64,000 nucleotides of DNA, from positions 6,235,001 to 6,299,000 of the forward strand of contig NZ_CP015136.1 of assembly GCF_001618865.1 (NCBI RefSeq). Direction: 5' to 3'. Below, in pieces: positions 24,342 to 57,713 of the stretch. The translations under genes and the position numbers were made by a program. Under the pieces are notes generated by a model that was given only the letters and a program-made list of their open reading frames with translations, ran no database searches and had not been told where the DNA came from. The stretch is from Luteitalea pratensis (GTDB taxonomy: Bacteria > Acidobacteriota > Vicinamibacteria > Vicinamibacterales > Vicinamibacteraceae). Each line of letters opens with the position of its first letter. The stretch's first letter is position 1.

Positions 24342-25205
24342 GTGAAGAGCTATCACGACATCGCCGGCGACGGAGGGTCGCGGGTCCTCGAGCAGGTGGC
24401 CGAGCAACGCGCCCGCATCAGCGACGGGCTCGCGGGCGTGCGCCATCTCGTCGCCGTAGGCTCGGGCAAGGGCGGTGTCGGCAAGAGCACGTTGACGCTG
24501 CATCTCGCTGGTGCACTGCGTGCCCGTGGCCTCCGGATTGCGATCCTCGATGCGGACTTCAACGGCCCTTCGCAGGCGCGCATGGCCGGAGTCCAGGGAG
24601 CGCTGTTCGTGCCCGGGAGGGACAGGGTCGCGCTACCGCGGACCAGCAGCGGGATCGGCGTCTTCTCGATGGGCTCGCTCGTCCCGGAGACATCTGCGCT
24701 CGAGTTCGAGAGCACAGCGCAAGGCGAGTCGCACACGTGGCGCGCCACGCGGGAGTTCGCGCTCCTCGGCGAAATCCTCGGCGCCTTCGAGTGGGGTGAG
24801 CTCGACCTGCTGATGTTCGACCTGCCACCGGGAGCGGAGCGGACCGTGCAGTACGCCGATTTCCTCGGGCCGCGGACCTCGTTCGTGCTGGTCACGATCC
24901 CGTCCGAAGTGGCCCGCGGTGTCGTCGCCCGTTCGGTGGCGGCGCTGTCGAAGGGACCCAATCGCCTCCTCGGCTACGTCGAGAACATGAGCGGCTACTA
25001 CTGCCGCGACTGCGACGCAATCAAGCCGCTCTTCGTCTCCCGGAACCAGGCCGACCTGGGAATCCCCTGTCTCGGCACCGTTCCGTTCGACCCTGAGCTG
25101 GCGCAGCACTGCGATCAGGGACTCGCGCTGGCAGACATGCCCGACACACTCGTCGGCCAGGCGCTGGACCAGATCGCGCAGCGACTCATGGAAGGTCTCG
25201 ACTGA
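24342..25205 (+). CDS. Mrp/MinD-type P-loop ATPase (ApbC/NBP35-like)
   Basis: A 287-residue deviant Walker A ATPase: GSGKGGVGKST (41-50 region), ILDADFNGPSQARMAGV for the Mrp-type Walker A'/switch, DLLMFDLPPGAERTVQ for Walker B, and a late GYVENMSGYYCRDCD segment whose CxxC resembles the cluster-binding CxxC of Mrp/NBP35 Fe-S carriers. Start: GTG at 24342. It overlaps the next gene (TGATG). Mrp proteins transiently bind and deliver [4Fe-4S] clusters, so supplying the radical SAM enzyme downstream is a reasonable inference. A MinD-like partitioning role is less likely given the CxxC and context. Confidence 0.8.
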   Translation: MKSYHDIAGDGGSRVLEQVAEQRARISDGLAGVRHLVAVGSGKGGVGKSTLTLHLAGALRARGLRIAILDADFNGPSQARMAGVQGALFVPGRDRVALPRTSSGIGVFSMGSLVPETSALEFESTAQGESHTWRATREFALLGEILGAFEWGELDLLMFDLPPGAERTVQYADFLGPRTSFVLVTIPSEVARGVVARSVAALSKGPNRLLGYVENMSGYYCRDCDAIKPLFVSRNQADLGIPCLGTVPFDPELAQHCDQGLALADMPDTLVGQALDQIAQRLMEGLD

Positions 25206-25663
25206 TGAAATTCCTCTGTGTCCCCTGCGACACGCCGATGAAGCTGCAGACCGTCGTTCCGCCCGACCGCGGCTCGCTGTCGGTCGTCTACGCGTGCCCC
25301 GAATGCGGCTACGAGATCGCGATGCTGACCAACGCGTACGAAACGCAGGTCGTGCAGTCGCTCGGCGTGCGCATCGGTCCCGACCTCGGCACTGAAGCGG
25401 CCGCAGGCACCTCCGGCTCCAGTTGCCCGTTCGCGGCGATGCTGCCCGCGACAGACGGTGCACCGGGCGTTGAAGCGCGGCCCGGACAGCCCGAACCAGC
25501 CGCCGTCCAATGGACTGCTGCGGCCGAAGCCAGGCTCGCGAACATCCCCGCGTTCGTGCGCCCGATGGCAAAGACCGGCATCGAGACCTTCGCCCGGGAG
25601 CGTGGGGTCGTGCAGGTGGACGAGACGATCCTCGACGCGGCCCGCGACTTCTTCGGGATGTGA
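25205..25663 (+). CDS. Zinc-ribbon protein with C-terminal PCP_red domain
   Basis: A 152-residue cytosolic protein. Cys 5 and 8 with Cys 31 and 34 (CVPC ... CPEC) form an N-terminal zinc ribbon or rubredoxin-like knuckle. A linker (60-100) contains one more Cys. Residues 102-151 are a clear PCP_red domain (VQWTAAAEARLANIPAFVRP, then MAKTGIETFARERGVVQVDE), closely similar to the C-terminus of the radical SAM protein next door. It starts within the stop of the ATPase gene. Function unknown; probably a small partner in cofactor handling. Confidence 0.75.
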   Translation: MKFLCVPCDTPMKLQTVVPPDRGSLSVVYACPECGYEIAMLTNAYETQVVQSLGVRIGPDLGTEAAAGTSGSSCPFAAMLPATDGAPGVEARPGQPEPAAVQWTAAAEARLANIPAFVRPMAKTGIETFARERGVVQVDETILDAARDFFGM

Positions 25664-25714: not shown

Positions 25715-27142
25715 ATGAATACGAACTCGTTCGCCAGGCCCTACGTCGTCTCCTGGAACCTCACCTACCGGTGCAATCTCGCCTGCGAGCACTGCTACCT
25801 CGATGCCGGCGGCAAGCCGCAGGTCGAGAGCGAGAACTTCGCCGATCGCAGCGAACTCGGCACCGAGGAATGCTTCCGGGTCATCGACGAGATCGCCACG
25901 TTCGCGCCTGAATGCCTGACGATCCTGACCGGCGGCGAACCGCTCCTGCGGCGCGACATCCTCGAGATCGTCCAGCGAGCGGCGGAGCGCGAGCTGTGGG
26001 TCGTCGTCGGCACCAATGGTGTGCGGATTACGGAGAACGTGGCCCGACGGCTGGCCGCAGCCGGAGCGCGCGGGCTCTCACTCTCGCTCGATGCGCTCGA
26101 TCCCGAGCGTCACGACCGCTTCAGGAACGTGCGCGGCGCGTGGCGCAACACCGTCGAAGGCGCGGAGATCCTCAACGCGACCGGCCTTCCCTTCATCGTC
26201 CAGACGACCGCAGGTTCACACAACATCGCCGAACTCGAAGCGATTGCCGACTTCGCGCACGAGCGCCTTGCCGCGAAGGTCTGGAACCTCTACTTCCTGG
26301 TGCCGACGGGACGCGGGCAGTTCGTGTCCGACATCAGTCCCGCGCAGTACGACGAGGTGCTCGCGTCGCTCTACCGGATCCAGCGGAAATACAGCGGCCG
26401 GATGCTCGTGAACGCGAAATGCGCCCCGCACTACATCAAGACGGTGCTGCAGAATGCCGCCGCCCAGGAAGATCCGGTCGTCGGGCAAGCCGAATCAACG
26501 TCCGTATCGTCGTTGCCCGGCCTGCCGGGGATCAGGACCTACTCGGGCGGTGCCGGCGGGTGTCCGGCGGGCACGCACTACATGGGGATCCGGCCAAACG
26601 GCGATGTCACTCCGTGCCCGTACTTGCCCGTCTTCGCGGGGACGCTTCGCACCGCGAGCCTGGCGGACCTGTGGACGTCCTCGGAGCTGTTCACCGACAT
26701 CCGTCGCCGCAACTCGCTCGGCGGGCGATGCGGTGAGTGCGAGATGAATGGGCACTGCGGCGGCTGTCGAGCCCGCGCGTTCGGCATGACGGGCGATCTG
26801 ATGGCCGAGGATCCCCTCTGCACCCACACGCCTGGTACGTTCGCCGCGTCGCCTCTCCTCCTTGCCCGCCGTAGCGCTGGCGAAGGCGGGGCCGGCGGCG
26901 GACCCGCGTCTGTCGCGGGAAGACAGCGGCCCACGGTGCTCGAGTACGGCCCGGAATCGCCGTCGACTGTCGCGTGGGACGACGCAGCCACCGCACGCAT
27001 GAAGAAGGTGCCCGCGTTCGTGCGGGGGATGGTGATGAGAGCCGTCGAGGAGTCCTGCCGCAAGAGCGGCCTCGACCGCGTCACCGTCGAGGAGCTCGAG
27101 CGGATCCGTGCGCGGATGCCTACGCCGAAGATGTTCGGGTAG
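25715..27142 (+). CDS. Radical SAM/SPASM protein with C-terminal PCP_red domain (NirJ/AhbD-like)
   Basis: A 475-residue protein. YVVSWNLTYRCNLACEHCYL carries the CxxxCxxC motif (Cys 20, 24, 27) for the SAM-bound [4Fe-4S] cluster, and TGGEPLLR is the SAM-binding GGE. The C-terminal SPASM-type cysteines are visible (CPAGTHYMGIRPNGDVTPCP, then CGECEMNGHCGGC and DPLC) for one or two auxiliary clusters. The N-terminal sequence resembles the heme-modifying NirJ/AhbC/AhbD group and PqqE-like enzymes. Residues 419-475 are a PCP_red domain (AWDDAATARMKKVPAFVRGM) ending TPKMFG. An in-frame REP-like hairpin encodes part of the linker. It is the last gene of the operon; substrate unproven. Confidence 0.82.
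   Translation: MNTNSFARPYVVSWNLTYRCNLACEHCYLDAGGKPQVESENFADRSELGTEECFRVIDEIATFAPECLTILTGGEPLLRRDILEIVQRAAERELWVVVGTNGVRITENVARRLAAAGARGLSLSLDALDPERHDRFRNVRGAWRNTVEGAEILNATGLPFIVQTTAGSHNIAELEAIADFAHERLAAKVWNLYFLVPTGRGQFVSDISPAQYDEVLASLYRIQRKYSGRMLVNAKCAPHYIKTVLQNAAAQEDPVVGQAESTSVSSLPGLPGIRTYSGGAGGCPAGTHYMGIRPNGDVTPCPYLPVFAGTLRTASLADLWTSSELFTDIRRRNSLGGRCGECEMNGHCGGCRARAFGMTGDLMAEDPLCTHTPGTFAASPLLLARRSAGEGGAGGGPASVAGRQRPTVLEYGPESPSTVAWDDAATARMKKVPAFVRGMVMRAVEESCRKSGLDRVTVEELERIRARMPTPKMFG
26865..26890. repeat. REP-like hairpin, family C, inside the radical SAM gene
   Basis: CCCGCCGTAGCGCTGGCGAA then GGCGGG: a hairpin with CCCGCC/GGCGGG arms and GTAG, read in frame as ARRSAGEGG in the linker between the SPASM and PCP_red domains. 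Confidence 0.65.
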
Positions 27143-27149
27143 GAATCGC
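27086..27149. repeat. Direct repeat, copy A (3' end of the radical SAM gene)
   Basis: The last 57 bp of the radical SAM gene plus 7 bp beyond. It matches 30476-30537 with six substitutions and a 2-base gap, and similarity stops at the same base (AGGAATCGC) in both copies. The cassette-like genes begin immediately after. Confidence 0.75.
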
Positions 27150-27151
27150 CG

Positions 27152-27727
27152 TCATGCGTGGTCCTTCTCAAAGAAGAACCAACGATGGCCTTCGAAATCT
27201 TCCGCCCGGTATCGTCGCCCGGGTAGCCCCTCGTCGATGTCAGACAGGATCATCGCACCCGCGGCCTTGGCTCGTGCAAAGTGTCCATCGAGGTCGTCCA
27301 CGTGGACGAGGACACCGTCGATAATCCACGGCACCGTCGACCACTTGCGGGCCTGCTCGCACACTTCGCGATGGTGTTTCGGACTCCGGTACTCGGGTGT
27401 GGGAGACGCAAGCATGATCAATCCGTCGCCTGCCTCCATCTCGCCGTGTGACAGCTTGCCATCCGGCGTCGTGAGGCGCACCGTCTCGCGAAAGCCGAAC
27501 GCAATGCGAAGCCATTCCAATGCCGCGATCCCATCCTCATAGGAGATCATGGGAATGACCGACGGCCGGTTGGCAGCTGGCCGTGCGTCTTTTGCAGCAG
27601 CCGACGGTTTGCGCGTGATCGCCGCCGTGCGGCCAGTCGCCCGACGTTTCCCCGTGGAGGGCGCTTTCGTTGCTGCCGCCTGGCGCTTCCTGCTGACCGC
27701 GGTCTTCCGAGTTGCTGACGTCCCCAT
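27152..27727 (-). CDS. VOC/glyoxalase-like protein with a histone-like basic N-terminal tail
   Basis: A 191-residue protein. Residues 1-55 are Lys/Arg/Ala/Thr-rich (AVSRKRQAAATKAPSTGKRR), like histone H1-type tails. Residues 58-190 are a vicinal-oxygen-chelate domain of the glyoxalase/bleomycin-resistance type: MISYEDGIAALEWLRIAFGF, DGKLSHGEMEAGDGLIML and GVLVHVDDLDGHFARAKAAG are typical beta-alpha-beta segments, closing with FEGHRWFFFE (the final Glu ligand). AAGGAG precedes the ATG. Its stop lies 3 bp from the repeat at the end of the radical SAM gene, and an attC-like site lies upstream. The basic tail suggests nucleic-acid or polyanion binding. Confidence 0.78.
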   Translation of the reverse strand: MGTSATRKTAVSRKRQAAATKAPSTGKRRATGRTAAITRKPSAAAKDARPAANRPSVIPMISYEDGIAALEWLRIAFGFRETVRLTTPDGKLSHGEMEAGDGLIMLASPTPEYRSPKHHREVCEQARKWSTVPWIIDGVLVHVDDLDGHFARAKAAGAMILSDIDEGLPGRRYRAEDFEGHRWFFFEKDHA

Positions 27728-27773
27728 CGGTCAACTCCTTCGGCGTCATGAATCGTCTGGTCTGGCTAACGCT

Positions 27774-27853
27774 CGCGAGCCGCGCCCCGCTGCGACATGG
27801 TCGCACGAGTCTTCCGGCGCGCCGGCTCCATTCGGTGTTAGGCGCGGTCCAGA
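27774..27853 (-). other. attC-like recombination site 1
   Basis: GGCTAAC at one end, GTTAGGC at the other, 80 bp overall. Inner arms AGCCGCGCC and GGCGCGCCGGCT are imperfectly complementary, as in attC hairpins. It lies after the stop of the beta-helix gene and before the VOC gene. Confidence 0.65.
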
Positions 27854-27877
27854 ACACACGCAGGTGATTCGGTGGTC

Positions 27878-29020
27878 TCATGGACACACCGTGGTGCCGC
27901 GAGTCAGGACCGTTTTATCGCAGACGATCGTGCCGATCGTGATCCCCTGGAACGTCGCGCGCGTTCCGAACTTCAAGTTCACATCGGTGTCGTTACCGGT
28001 GATTTCGGACCCGTTCGGTGGGTCCGTCACGAAGCTCAGGAAGCTGGCGCCATCGGCCAGGATGCCGGTGCCGTTGTTCTGAACGGTCAGCTTTGCGGGG
28101 TTGACGAGGGCTGAACATCCTGCATCGAAGAACATGCCGATGCGATTGTTCCTGAGCACGAACGTGCCCCGCCCGAACGGGTCCAACAACTTGCCGCCGG
28201 CCGGGCAGAAAAGCCCGAAGCCGTTGTTCTCCGCGGTGATTGTGATCGGACCGAAGATCGAGAACAGGGAAGTCCCGATGCCGATCGCGGCGCCCCTGTT
28301 GTGACTCGCCGTGATCGTGCTGCCCCGTGAGGCCGTGAATGCGTAGACGACAAGGCGGCCGTCGGCGGCGGCGAACCCGAAATCATTGTTGCTCACCTCA
28401 ACGTGCGCCCCGCGAATCTCGATGACGGATCCGCCGTTGACGTCGGCGCCGTGGGACCGGTTGTCCCTGATGATGATTCGTCCCCGTAGGATCACGAGCG
28501 AGGCGTTGAGCACGTCGATGCCCTGCTGATTCCGTTGCAACGTCACGTCGGCGAGCTCGGCGGTCGAGTGGTCTGTGACGTCGATGCCCATGAAGCCGTG
28601 GCCCTGTAGCGTGGTGCTCTTCACCGCAAACGTCGCGGCATGGATGGCGAGAATGCCGTCGCCCGGCCCGTTCTGGATGGTGAGGCCTGTGATCGTCACT
28701 CCCCTGGCACCGTCGATCGTCACCACCCCTGAGAGCTCAGTCGGGGTACCTCCTCCTCCATCGAGGATCGTCCTGTCTTGCCCGTCGAGCGTCAGCCGGT
28801 CCGTGGTAATCGTGATTCTCTCGCGGCACGTTCCAGTGGCGCGAATCGTGTCGCCGGGGACGGCATCGGTCAGAGCCGTGGTGATCGTCTCACCCTTGGC
28901 GCAGTCCACGTTTCTGATTGCGGCGAGGGCCGGGCTGGCTGCCGCGAAGACGGCCAGTCCTAGAAACGTCGTCGGAACGGTCCTGGCGATGTGCCAAATT
29001 GTTCGTTCGGAAGTACTCAT
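27878..29020 (-). CDS. Secreted right-handed beta-helix repeat protein
   Basis: A 380-residue protein with a signal peptide (hydrophobic residues about 17-33, cleavage near SPALAA). The mature part is a parallel beta-helix of the pectate-lyase/NosD kind: repeated turns such as GVTITGLTIQNGPGDGI, AELADVTLQRNQQGIDVL and GTFVLRNNRIGMFF, with Asn-ladder positions. No catalytic triad of a known lyase is evident. It could bind or cut a polysaccharide outside the cell. It lies between two attC-like sites and has no clear Shine-Dalgarno, as is often true of cassette genes. Confidence 0.8.
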   Translation of the reverse strand: MSTSERTIWHIARTVPTTFLGLAVFAAASPALAAIRNVDCAKGETITTALTDAVPGDTIRATGTCRERITITTDRLTLDGQDRTILDGGGGTPTELSGVVTIDGARGVTITGLTIQNGPGDGILAIHAATFAVKSTTLQGHGFMGIDVTDHSTAELADVTLQRNQQGIDVLNASLVILRGRIIIRDNRSHGADVNGGSVIEIRGAHVEVSNNDFGFAAADGRLVVYAFTASRGSTITASHNRGAAIGIGTSLFSIFGPITITAENNGFGLFCPAGGKLLDPFGRGTFVLRNNRIGMFFDAGCSALVNPAKLTVQNNGTGILADGASFLSFVTDPPNGSEITGNDTDVNLKFGTRATFQGITIGTIVCDKTVLTRGTTVCP

Positions 29021-29038
29021 GGCCCGGCAGTTGGTTGC

Positions 29039-29095
29039 GCCTAACGTTCGAGTTTAACCGGCCCGCGGAGGGTCCGGTTGAACGAGGGGTCAGGC
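29039..29095 (-). other. attC-like recombination site 2
   Basis: GCCTAAC (29039-29045) and GTCAGGC (29089-29095) bracket TTTAACCGGCCC and GGGTCCGGTTGAAC, which pair as AACCGG/CCGGTT plus GTTC/GAAC. At 57 bp it is about the minimal attC length. The stop codon of the DUF1801 gene lies inside the GCCTGAC core. Confidence 0.7.
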
Positions 29096-29516
29096 GTCGC
29101 CGGGCTGCGGATACCGGCACCTGACTTCGGCGACCGACCCGGCAATGAGTGCCTCCAGGACCTTGACGTCGAGGTCCGCCAGGCCCTTGAAGTACAGGCA
29201 GACCTTACCCATCTTGTGTCTCCCGAGCCTGGCCAGGAGGTCGACCTGCTCGGGGTTCTCCGCGCAGACGGAGACGACCAGCTCCTTGCCGCGGACTGCG
29301 AAGCCCGTGAGAAATGCGTCGCCTGAGTGGCCACTCTCGTACCTGTAGGTGTACGAGCCTACGATGCTGGGCCCCCACATCTTTGGCTGCTGCTTCGTCA
29401 CCCTCTTGCACATGGCCATGATGGCCTTGCAGTCCGCCAGTTGCTCGGGACTGGGCTCTGGACGCGAGGTACGCGTCGACGCTCGCGCCCGTGGGTTTGG
29501 TTTTGGTCTCTGCCAT
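29090..29516 (-). pseudogene. DUF1801-family protein gene with a +1 frameshift
   Basis: MAETKTKPTGASVDAYLAS (from the ATG at 29516) is a typical DUF1801 N-terminus, but the continuation EQLADCKAIMAMCKRVTKQQ, PKMWGPSIVGSYTYRYESGH and QVDLLARLGRHKMGKVCLYF lies in another frame. The gene spans 427 bp, one more than a multiple of three, so a single extra base near 29455-29462 explains the break. The downstream part is well conserved, so the lesion is recent or an assembly error. DUF1801 has a YdhG-like fold of unknown function. Confidence 0.72.
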
Positions 29517-30373
29517 CGAGATTCCTGGTCAGCGGGGAGCGTAGGACCGTTGTGGGTGCGACGCCTGACGCGCAAGCTCACCTGCCGCGGCTCGGGGAGC
29601 TCGAACTCTGAGAAAGCCGACATGCCGCCGCGGTCAGGTGCAGCGCCTGGTTCGGCCGCTGCGGCGGTCCAAGTCACTTTGGCAAGGTACTCCTTGAGGA
29701 AGGCGGCGATGAGCCGCACCGACTCGTCGTAGTGCTTCGCGTCGGCGAAGAGGCCGTTGTGGCCGCCGTCGAAGTACACTGCCTTGACCGGTTTCCCTTC
29801 CCTCCGCAGCGCGTGCTCGAATTTCCGGGCTCGATCAACCGCCGTTCTTTCGGAGCCACCGTCAGCGGGGCTGTCCGCCTTGCCATGCAGCAGCAGGAGC
29901 GGAGCGCTGACCGCCCCAGCACGATCAACCACTTCTTGAGGGTACCCCGTCGAGTTGAGCACGGCGACCCACACGCCGCCTCGCTCGAATACGTAGTGGA
30001 GTGCGGCGCCGCCGCCGCGCGACTGGCCGAAGAGGGCAACCCGGTCGCCGCGCACTCCCGGACGTTCGCGTACCGCCGTTACGAGCGCACCGACGATCTC
30101 GAGTGCCTCATCGCTCGTAGCCGCCGGCGTGTCAGGCGCGTCTGGGCAAGCGATCGGCGTGACGAATTGCATTCCCGCACCCTGGCCGCCTCTGAACCAG
30201 CACCCCGCGACCGCGACGACAGCCGACTCGCGCGAGACGTCCTGGGCGAATCGCACGTACTCACGTGCGATTCCGTGGGTCCCGTGCAGGAGGACGAGGA
30301 CCGGAAACGGACCCTCGCCCGGCGGCCGCGCGACAGCGGCGGTCAGCGTCCCACCGGGTGCCGGCACGGGCAC
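29090..30373 (-). CDS. Dienelactone-hydrolase-like alpha/beta hydrolase; the open frame runs through attC 3 into the DUF1801 segment
   Basis: The frame gives 427 residues. Residues 1-235 are an alpha/beta hydrolase: FPVLVLLHGTHG, the nucleophile elbow GQSRGG, LLHGKADSPAD with the Asp, and FDGGHNGLF with the His. No stop occurs before attC 3, so the frame continues through the site (about 240-270) and, because of the +1 frameshift in the next gene, enters the DUF1801 sequence in frame. The expected N-terminal extension or signal peptide of such hydrolases is missing: conserved GVEWVPVP lies upstream of the GTG at 30373 with no start codon. The gene is probably 5'-truncated next to the radical SAM repeat, and activity is doubtful. 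Confidence 0.6.
   Translation of the reverse strand: MPVPAPGGTLTAAVARPPGEGPFPVLVLLHGTHGIAREYVRFAQDVSRESAVVAVAGCWFRGGQGAGMQFVTPIACPDAPDTPAATSDEALEIVGALVTAVRERPGVRGDRVALFGQSRGGGAALHYVFERGGVWVAVLNSTGYPQEVVDRAGAVSAPLLLLHGKADSPADGGSERTAVDRARKFEHALRREGKPVKAVYFDGGHNGLFADAKHYDESVRLIAAFLKEYLAKVTWTAAAAEPGAAPDRGGMSAFSEFELPEPRQVSLRVRRRTHNGPTLPADQESRWQRPKPNPRARASTRTSRPEPSPEQLADCKAIMAMCKRVTKQQPKMWGPSIVGSYTYRYESGHSGDAFLTGFAVRGKELVVSVCAENPEQVDLLARLGRHKMGKVCLYFKGLADLDVKVLEALIAGSVAEVRCRYPQPGDA
29563..29656 (-). other. attC-like recombination site 3
   Basis: GCCTGAC at 29563 and GTTCGGC at 29650-29656 with long arms ACCTGCCGCGGC and GCCGCGGTCAGGT, complementary except for one bulged T, an extrahelical base as expected in attC. 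94 bp, between the hydrolase-like and DUF1801 genes. Confidence 0.65.
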
Positions 30374-30475
30374 CCACTCGACGCCCGCGAGCCCCTCAGC
30401 GCCAGCCGGGGCGATCGGGCCCGCCCGCGCCGTCGTCTTGAAACACGGCCATGCCGGCCGGTCAAGTGCAACGCC

Positions 30476-30537
30476 GTCGAAGAACTCGAGCGCATCCGCG
30501 CGGATGCAGACACCGAAGATGTTCGGGTAGGAATCGC
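30476..30537. repeat. Direct repeat, copy B (displaced 3' end of the radical SAM/PCP_red gene)
   Basis: Matches 27086-27149 with six substitutions and a 2-base gap. It still encodes VEELERIRA in one frame and RMQTPKMFG-stop in the next. Weaker similarity may extend left to about 30400. It lies at the far side of the VOC-to-hydrolase segment. Confidence 0.7.
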
Positions 30538-30588
30538 TTACGCCTCAAATCGGCCGGATGGGTCCTCTCGGCGATCTTGAAGGGTGTG

Positions 30589-30882
30589 TCACCACCCGAG
30601 CAGGAAAACCGGTGCCATGGCCGCCAGGGCTGCGACCAACTGCAAACCCAAGATGCGGAGAGCCTGTCTAGGTGATTGGGGGAACCACTTGACTGCAAAG
30701 AAGGCGATGACGGGCACCTGGCAAACCATGAGCAGTTGCCAGATGTGGGCGGCCGCGCCTTCATCCGCCTGGGGCGCGGTTCCGTGCAACGCGACGTAGA
30801 CAGTGATGGTTGCGAGGGCAGCGAGCGACATCGCGATGGGAAGAAACGCACTCGGACGGCGGACCATCAGGATTGAAGTCAT
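30589..30882 (-). CDS. Small hypothetical membrane protein
   Basis: 97 residues with three hydrophobic segments (about 11-30, 47-62 and 75-95) separated by short loops; the last reads LRILGLQLVAALAAMAPVFL. I recognise no family. It is on the same strand as the next small membrane protein, 53 bp away, and the two may form one unit. No attC-like site separates them. Confidence 0.5.
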   Translation of the reverse strand: MTSILMVRRPSAFLPIAMSLAALATITVYVALHGTAPQADEGAAAHIWQLLMVCQVPVIAFFAVKWFPQSPRQALRILGLQLVAALAAMAPVFLLGW

Positions 30883-30935
30883 GTGCCACCTGTCCTCACC
30901 TCGCCCTGGTAAGCCTGTCGACAGTCAGTGGAGAT

Positions 30936-31280
30936 CTACCTATCCTGCTCCCAGTGGAACCTGTGCAGGAGACGATGCAGTATTGGCGCCAACACCAGAC
31001 CCGCGGCAGCCAGGAACACCAGGCCAGCATAGAGCGCGTAGAGACCGGCGAACACCTTGCCACCGTTGGTTTTTGGCGGGTCGACTGGCCCCATGCCGCC
31101 AATGAGCATTGCGGTGTTGAGAAACGCATCGCGCCACGGCAGGTCCTCGAAGTACTCGTAGCCCACCATGCCCAGGGCAAGCGAAAGGCTCAGCACTGCC
31201 AACGCCGCAGCGAAGTGCAACAGCACGCGCCTGACGAAACGCTCATGCGCAATGAGTGGATGTACCTTTGCTTCGTACAT
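30936..31280 (-). CDS. Small two- to three-helix membrane protein, ion-channel-like without a selectivity filter
   Basis: 114 residues. A helix at 21-43 is followed by a re-entrant-like loop, WRDAFLNTAMLIGGMGPVDP, and a second helix with GKVFAGLYALYAGLVFLAAAG. This arrangement and the GxxFAGLYALYxGLVF helix resemble the pore module of two-TM potassium channels, but the TVGYG filter is replaced by IGGMGPV, so K+ selectivity is not expected. The loop pattern recurs in uncharacterised soil-bacterial proteins. Function unknown. Confidence 0.55.
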   Translation of the reverse strand: MYEAKVHPLIAHERFVRRVLLHFAAALAVLSLSLALGMVGYEYFEDLPWRDAFLNTAMLIGGMGPVDPPKTNGGKVFAGLYALYAGLVFLAAAGLVLAPILHRLLHRFHWEQDR

Positions 31281-31307
31281 GGACGTTCGGCTGTCCTCGT
31301 TTCGAGC

Positions 31308-31352
31308 GCCTAACGATGCGCATCACCCGGCTCATGACGCTCCAGGTCAGGC
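31308..31352 (-). other. Degenerate attC-like site
   Basis: GCCTAAC at 31308-31314 and GTCAGGC at 31346-31352, with the zinc-ribbon gene's stop codon inside the GCCTGAC core exactly as at attC 2. Only 45 bp, and the inner arms pair poorly, so it may be a deleted site. Confidence 0.4.
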
Positions 31353-31568
31353 CGATGGTTTGGTCTCATGCGGATATTGGAAGGCTGCCCACCTGCATTT
31401 CTGACAGATGTAACCCTCCGCCTGATCCCCGAATAGCGTCCACCGACCGACCAGCCAGACCTGATCCTTCACAATCCCGGTCTTGCGGTCTCCGGGATAC
31501 CACGTGACGTTGTTGGGGAGAGTAAAATGCCCTCTCTCCATCTCCGCATTGCATTTTGGGCAGTTCAT
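31347..31568 (-). CDS. Small zinc-ribbon protein (DUF6487-like)
   Basis: 73 residues. MNCPKCNAEMERGHF supplies one CxxC knuckle and GYICQKCRWAAFQY the second, around a short beta-rich core with WYPGDRKTG. This is the layout of small PF20097-type zinc-ribbon proteins. Function unknown. The stop codon lies within the attC-like core sequence downstream, consistent with a cassette-borne gene. Confidence 0.65.
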   Translation of the reverse strand: MNCPKCNAEMERGHFTLPNNVTWYPGDRKTGIVKDQVWLVGRWTLFGDQAEGYICQKCRWAAFQYPHETKPSA

Positions 31569-31778
31569 GTTGAGGATGTTCGGCGAGGCCTGATCAGTCG
31601 GATCGATTGCCCGATGTTGCCGTGGCCGGCCCCTTGATTTGCGCCGGCGCCATGGCCAGGAGCCGGAGATAGGCCGAAGGCGCCATTCCCGCGTGACCGT
31701 CGCCGAACTCTACTCGAAAAGCCACGCGCTTGCCGATGCCGAAAGGTGTCGAGCGGGGCCGCAAGGTAACCGTTCGAT

Positions 31779-31842
31779 GGTAGGGCCGGCTCTCCTTGGG
31801 CGCCGAAGCACCTCGCGCCAAGGTGGCCGAGCGCGGCCCCGT
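31779..31842. repeat. REP-like element, family A, diverged
   Basis: GGTAGGGCCGGCTCTCCTTG at 31779-31798, with a GGCCGAGCGCGGCCC end at about 31825. The 277-bp gap holding it (31569-31845) has no gene I can support. Confidence 0.55.
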
Positions 31843-31845
31843 CGG

Positions 31846-32643
31846 TCAGCGGAACGGATCCGGGGCGCCCTGCTCCTCGATCTGCTGCGCCAGCCACTTC
31901 TCGAATGCCTCGGGGCTCTCGACGGTGACGAATCCCCGCATCCGGGCATGACCCAGCCCACACAGCTGCGCGCAGGCGATCTCGTACTGGAACTCGGCGT
32001 TCCCGGTCCTCGCGCGCATCTCCGCGGTGGTGACGTTAGGGATGAACCAGATGGGGATCGTGAGCCCGGGGATCGCGTCCTGCTTCACGCGGAACTCGGG
32101 CACGCCGAAGCTGTGGATGACGTCCTTGCTCCTCAGCCTGACGATCACCGGCTTGTTCGCGGGCAGGTGCAGCTGGTTGAGCGTCGTGACGTCGTCCTTC
32201 GCGGCCGGGTCATCTCGATCGAGACCGAGAGGGTTCGACTGCAGATCCAGCAGCTTGAGGTCCGTACGTCCGAATTTCCCGTCGGGGCCCGGATAGTGGA
32301 TGTTCCAGGCGAACTGCTCGCCCGTGACCTGGACGACGAGCGCCTCGCTCGGTGACGGCATGCGATCGACCCGCGCAGCCCAGAGCGGGACCGAGAACGC
32401 AAACAGAAGGACCGCTTCGACGACGGCGACGGCGATCTCGAGATAACTCGATGAATGCGACTTGACGCCGGTGTAGTTGGCCACCGGGTGCTGCGAGCGC
32501 CGGAAGCGCAGCAGGCAGTAGGCGAAGAACCCGCCCCACCCGATGAACAGGGCGAACATGAAGATGTGCGTCCAGCCGATCAGGCTGTCGATTTGCCCGC
32601 CGTGAGCCGCGGCGAGCGGTGGCAGTCCGAGCCATTCAGTCAT
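31846..32643 (-). CDS. coxB: Cytochrome c oxidase subunit II
   Basis: A 265-residue subunit carrying the CuA centre that takes electrons from cytochrome c. Two membrane helices (about 23-45 and 68-92) precede a periplasmic cupredoxin domain. The CuA ligands are seen in DVIHSFGVPEF (His 177) and CAQLCGLGHARM (Cys 224, Cys 228, His 232, Met 235). QFAWNIHYPGPD contains the aromatic patch Trp for electron entry. No fused cytochrome c domain is present. It is the last gene of the cox operon rather than the first, which is unusual; its ATG overlaps the stop of the small membrane protein upstream (ATGA). Confidence 0.93.
   Translation of the reverse strand: MTEWLGLPPLAAAHGGQIDSLIGWTHIFMFALFIGWGGFFAYCLLRFRRSQHPVANYTGVKSHSSSYLEIAVAVVEAVLLFAFSVPLWAARVDRMPSPSEALVVQVTGEQFAWNIHYPGPDGKFGRTDLKLLDLQSNPLGLDRDDPAAKDDVTTLNQLHLPANKPVIVRLRSKDVIHSFGVPEFRVKQDAIPGLTIPIWFIPNVTTAEMRARTGNAEFQYEIACAQLCGLGHARMRGFVTVESPEAFEKWLAQQIEEQGAPDPFR

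Positions 32644-50825: not shown

Positions 50826-57713
<6,888 letters not shown>

Follow-up and report, generated by a model that had tools for sequence, protein, structure and literature searches.

The 3′ end of a radical-SAM gene occurs twice in the window (the whole 64-kb stretch analyzed here, C1:6235001-6299000 of its own genome), once in the intact gene and once on the far side of a 3.3 kb segment with integron cassette-like genes. An ordinary DNA insertion has probably left this pattern as its scar. As to its origin, we see about an even chance that a broken cassette-array fragment was inserted at the 3′ end of the gene and that 62-64 bases were duplicated in the process. The locus comprises the following features:

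25715-27142, plus strand: radical SAM-SPASM gene whose 3′ end forms the near copy of the repeat and whose product carries a PCP_red domain at the C-terminus
27086-27149, plus strand: near copy of the repeat, made up of the last 18 codons, the stop codon and 7 further bases of the radical-SAM gene
27152-27727, minus strand: VOC/glyoxalase-family gene, a cassette without its attC; 2 bases separate its stop codon from the end of the near repeat
27764-27843, minus strand: attC site; its family is found widely in the order
27878-29020, minus strand: right-handed beta-helix protein, intact frame
29039-29095, minus strand: moderately supported attC-like site (in simulated sequence, 0.3 such sites are expected per 64 kb)
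29090-29516, minus strand: DUF1801-like gene in two pieces owing to a frameshift; its Pfam match is weak and falls short of the curated cut-off
29563-29656, minus strand: weak attC-like site (10.1 bits, E = 0.11)
29570-30475, minus strand: dienelactone-hydrolase-like gene without start codon or signal peptide, its 5′ end cut at the far repeat
30476-30537, plus strand: far copy of the repeat, its frame broken by a 2-base gap
30538-31845, minus strand: further strain-specific DNA
30589-30882 and 30936-31280, minus strand: two small membrane-protein ORFs in the strain-specific DNA right of the far copy
near 31308-31352, minus strand: weak attC-like site outside the repeat-enclosed segment
31347-31568, minus strand: DUF6487 gene, likewise in the strain-specific DNA right of the far copy
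31846-32595, minus strand: coxB (the part that served as query), which converges on the radical-SAM gene and forms the insertion's right border

PCP_red domains end two adjacent genes at this place (25205-25663 and 26975-27106), one of which has a zinc-ribbon-like N-terminus while the other is fused to radical SAM-SPASM.

Two copies of the gene end

In a position-by-position alignment the two copies differ by six substitutions, located at 27091, 27094, 27103, 27120, 27121 and 27124, and by one gap, bases 27108-27109 being absent from the far copy. The final 25 bases including the stop codon TAG are identical, and similarity stops at the same base (27149 and 30537, respectively), which confirms the repeat as it had first been described. 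The local score of the near against the far copy is 91, compared with at most 29 in 1000 shuffles, and one tandem array aside this is the only direct repeat with a score of at least 55 in the self-comparison of the window. That array (53575-57220) has a period of 276 bases and about 13 copies, as judged from multiples of 276 in the self-comparison; its unit corresponds to 92 codons in frame and probably encodes a repeat protein. Beyond the 62-64 bases no similarity was detected, either upstream (score 17, shuffle mean 18.8) or downstream (score 16, shuffle mean 15.7).

When the end of the radical-SAM gene is compared with its own genome, a single contig of 7.48 Mb, the far copy ranks second among the matches (E = 4e-16); a third, weaker match of 41 bases at 83% identity lies at C1:3532777, and there is none elsewhere. 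The 7 bases 3′ of the stop codon are common to the two copies only and occur in none of ten close orthologs. Likewise, the 22-base shared end was found, among 285 loci compared, only in own-genome stretches at this place. With this confinement and a single weaker third match, a common unrelated repeat, which had been named as one of the findings that would undo the proposal, is unsupported as an explanation. An Rfam search of 20-40 kb gave nothing relevant.

The original prediction had also considered that the far copy could be the remnant of a decayed second PCP_red gene. PCP_red domains do occur twice close by, at 25205-25663 and in the radical-SAM protein; we nonetheless regard this origin as highly improbable, since the search for longer PCP_red similarity around the far copy found none, the 7 post-stop bases match only this radical-SAM gene, and the adjoining DNA codes for the hydrolase from about 30412 downwards.

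A cassette segment with broken edges

All genes assigned to the enclosed segment lie on the minus strand. The DNA at 27760-27844 matches many other genomes of the order, and from an alignment of such matches an attC family emerges that has core sites and long arms. Eight sequences of this family, the window site among them, were used for a covariance model, which detected the family in 34 of the 60 genomes searched, often with several sites in a row, and scored the window site at 71.5 bits (E = 1e-18). At least part of the block is of cassette nature. Of the "three good attC-like sites" noted in the enclosed 3.3 kb, the one at 27764-27843 is certain; support is weaker for 29039-29095 and 29563-29656, and a further weak site is located outside the segment. 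A candidate attC remnant of the small membrane ORF, from 30535 to 30589, reached 4.7 bits (E = 4.8) and is not claimed.

A search of the own genome for integron integrases (TIGR02249) returned 12 matches, all of them outside the window, and there is no site-specific integrase gene among the genes between the repeats. Besides the window, the attC model detects a run of sites from C1:2455202 onwards, upstream of which broken integrase pieces are located (C1:2451887-2452362); among solved structures, these match the integron integrase IntI4 best. As this run and these pieces show, the genome holds a decayed chromosomal integron away from the window, and the window segment is a stray cassette cluster. 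In the comparison of loci the corresponding stretch (L194, G000:C1:2451000-2462000) displays broken IntI-like pieces and, after them, no fewer than three attC sites that belong to the window's family. Judged by its sequence, the enclosed 3.3 kb segment is an integron cassette-array fragment without a nearby integrase, similar to a CALIN.

Sequence is missing at both edges of the segment. The VOC homolog of G011 has an attC-core-like motif before it and an attC directly after it, whereas the VOC gene of the window has no attC at the near-repeat edge. At the opposite edge, the hydrolase frame of the window is open to 30475, has no start and meets the far repeat, while two homologs of 45-52% identity, in G029 and G101, start with signal-peptide-like sequence. 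Both ends thus look broken exactly at the repeats. Clean cassette exchange mediated by the integrase would leave the cassettes whole. Because they are cut at both edges, the block was most likely inserted by a route other than clean exchange by the integron integrase.

A direct repeat that covers the 3′ end of a gene and its stop codon is the usual layout of the att sites of integrated islands, and the repeat in the window is arranged in this manner. The block could accordingly be read as a genomic island or a cis-mobilizable remnant, integrated at the gene 3′ end by a tyrosine recombinase, with the two copies as attL and attR. We consider this distinctly unlikely, as none of the integrase-family matches falls in the window, the edges of the block are ragged, the far copy has gene-like sequence with substitutions left of the identical core, and no other genome compared carries a repeat at this gene end.

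Empty sites in relatives and extent of the insert

A scan of the named genomes yielded 80 loci, of which 45 (L079-L122 and L127) were examined and 44 were scored to the gene end, L088 being left out since its match did not reach that far. In seven orthologous loci a convergent coxB lies within about 20-360 bases 3′ of the radical-SAM gene, and the gene end is single. In G038 the coxB reading frame ends 85 bases past the radical-SAM stop codon, and in six of the 44 scored loci coxB lies downstream on the opposite strand at a distance of 44 (L079), 105 (L081), 32 (L082), 22 (L083, the same locus as G050), 361 (L084) and 65 bases (L116). The gap between both genes contains 2.5 kb of other DNA in L085, which is G030, and another insert in L080, which is G055; in the remaining scored loci there is no coxB close downstream of the radical-SAM gene. 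No gene-end repeat like that of the window was detected in the 44 scored loci, the few hits being at most 48 bases long with E-values of 1.7e-4 or weaker. In the same-genus genomes G001-G004 neither the radical-SAM gene nor the coxB of the window has a close match, and the empty sites thus come from less close relatives.

The inserts of G030 and G055 (L045 6823-9300 and L042 5061-7250) differ from each other, and the gap between the radical-SAM and cox genes is therefore a variable spot.

In the window 4.7 kb separate the radical-SAM gene from coxB; strain-specific DNA extends from 27143 to about 31845 and includes the far copy, so that the insert is larger than the 3.3 kb first proposed. The stretch 30538-31845 is absent from the relatives' loci, and the right flank from 30538 onwards is not the native flank of any relative. 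Since this flank matches none of theirs, the state before the insertion does not appear to be represented among the loci compared. A dispersed repeat (31775-31838) adjoins the right border of the insertion and has further copies in the own genome at C1:5615783 (92%) and C1:189637 (89%) as well as in same-genus genomes.

The original prediction of an insertion at the gene's 3′ end holds insofar as the segment is missing from the seven orthologous loci, which have one gene end and not both copies, and needs amendment with respect to the length, about 4.7 kb rather than 3.3 kb. Given the broken edges on either side of the 3.3 kb, the copies are unlikely to be a clean site-specific mark.

A parallel in another genome and repeats at attC loci

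Among 20 attC loci compared, one in G048 (C4, L216, 7703-9564) contains a cassette-like insert of about 940 bp with an attC (42.3 bits), the genes of which presumably represent a small toxin-antitoxin pair. On either side of the insert stands a stretch of 455-460 bases that comes from the 5′ part of an ATPase-like gene and is repeated at 90% identity. In G118, which belongs to the same genus as G048, the duplicated stretch is present as one continuous copy and the site is thus empty. With G118 as outgroup, the changes at codon positions 1, 2 and 3 amount to 2, 0 and 8 in the intact G048 copy and to 5, 2 and 7 in the remnant, a pattern that leans towards duplication in place.

Enrichment of direct repeats was analyzed in 40 attC loci and in 20 other regions, mostly of the same genomes. 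At a cut chosen after seeing the data (score of at least 85, identity of at least 85%, attC-attC matches left out), such repeats are present in 6 of 40 attC loci and 0 of 20 controls (P = 0.077, not significant), and repeats that flank an attC in 4 of 40 and 0 of 20 (P = 0.19, not significant). One of these four cases, L205, terminates in a motif resembling an attC core and could be a cassette present twice. At a score of 70 without identity limit the counts are 17 of 40 attC loci, attC-attC matches included, and 7 of 20 controls.

Origin of the duplication

In the proposed sequence of events, a broken cassette-array fragment (VOC, beta-helix, DUF1801-like and hydrolase genes, minus strand) would insert at the 3′ end of the radical-SAM gene, duplicating 62-64 bases from this end and leaving an intact gene to the left of the block and a remnant of the gene end to its right. 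The route would be break repair, end-joining, template switching or homology-assisted joining rather than the integron integrase, and we infer that duplication and insertion were one event. The DNA at 30538-31845 may have arrived either earlier or in the same event as the cassette block.

Against a single event with duplication stands the contrast between a divergence of the copies that has already reached 10% and a hydrolase frame that has remained open over about 800 bases; if both had been neutral since one event, a simple rate model gives P of about 0.02 for this combination. The lack of significant enrichment of flanking repeats at attC loci in general and a right flank, from 30538 onwards, that is native to no relative likewise count against it. 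Of the six substitutions between the copies, five affect third codon positions (P = 0.018), a bias that points to divergence as coding sequence. When the six sites are polarized with ten orthologs, the change at 27120 falls clearly in the far copy and that at 27121 probably in the near copy, the others being ambiguous or leaning weakly.

This pattern is accommodated by homologous capture, in which DNA of a related strain, carrying the cassettes beside its own radical-SAM end, would have been joined to the resident locus by a single crossover or by homology-facilitated illegitimate recombination, bringing together two diverged alleles. The third-position bias would then be expected, the hydrolase frame could still be open though the far copy has already gained a gap, and at 27121 the far copy indeed carries the base of six of the ten orthologs while the near-copy base occurs in none. 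However, the numbers are small, no donor genome is known, the gene is absent from the same-genus genomes searched, and the G048 parallel leans to duplication in place, its remnant being less biased than the intact copy. Capture is therefore a possibility of some substance, albeit on balance an improbable one.

Extending insertion with duplication beyond this locus is a larger step. That cassette-array fragments in this order enter chromosomes independently of the integrase, with long imperfect duplications of tens to hundreds of bases and an intact target gene as the outcome, seems unlikely to us at present; the window and G048 would be two examples if the reading is true.

Comparison with known systems

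Cassettes away from an integron are common, yet their way of arrival is rarely visible. They are reportedly inserted also at attG sites outside the integron, as Loot et al. (2024), cited in PMC12444791, are said to have described. The window resembles such insertions in that cassettes are placed outside the integron, but attC x attG exchange would not be expected to duplicate 62 target bases or to cut cassettes. Homology-facilitated illegitimate recombination combines one homologous with one illegitimate junction and could give the layout of the window; no donor is known here, and in this organism the mechanism is so far a candidate.

Beside fixed chromosomal genes, stray cassette clusters are described in PMC12444791, for Xanthomonas, and in PMC9024848; an acidobacterial attC model exists according to PMC8352920. 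Among the papers listed by a literature search, none deals with this locus or with such duplications at cassette insertions, which does not prove that there is none. While stray clusters are thus already known, the duplicated gene end is the less usual part. The window locus alone is one decayed insertion; with a gene stretch duplicated at two loci, one of which has an empty site in the same genus, this scar becomes open to systematic search.

One of the closest known categories is the CALIN, for which the default in IntegronFinder 2.0 is at least two attC sites, as given in PMC9024848; the window has one certain site, the others being moderate or weak. As in a CALIN, attC site(s) and cassette-like genes in one orientation are found away from any integrase: there is no integron integrase in the window, all genes of the segment are on the minus strand, and the G011 homolog of the VOC gene is placed like a cassette. 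The window differs from a CALIN by its single certain attC, by the broken ends of its cluster and by the duplicated gene end that flanks it.
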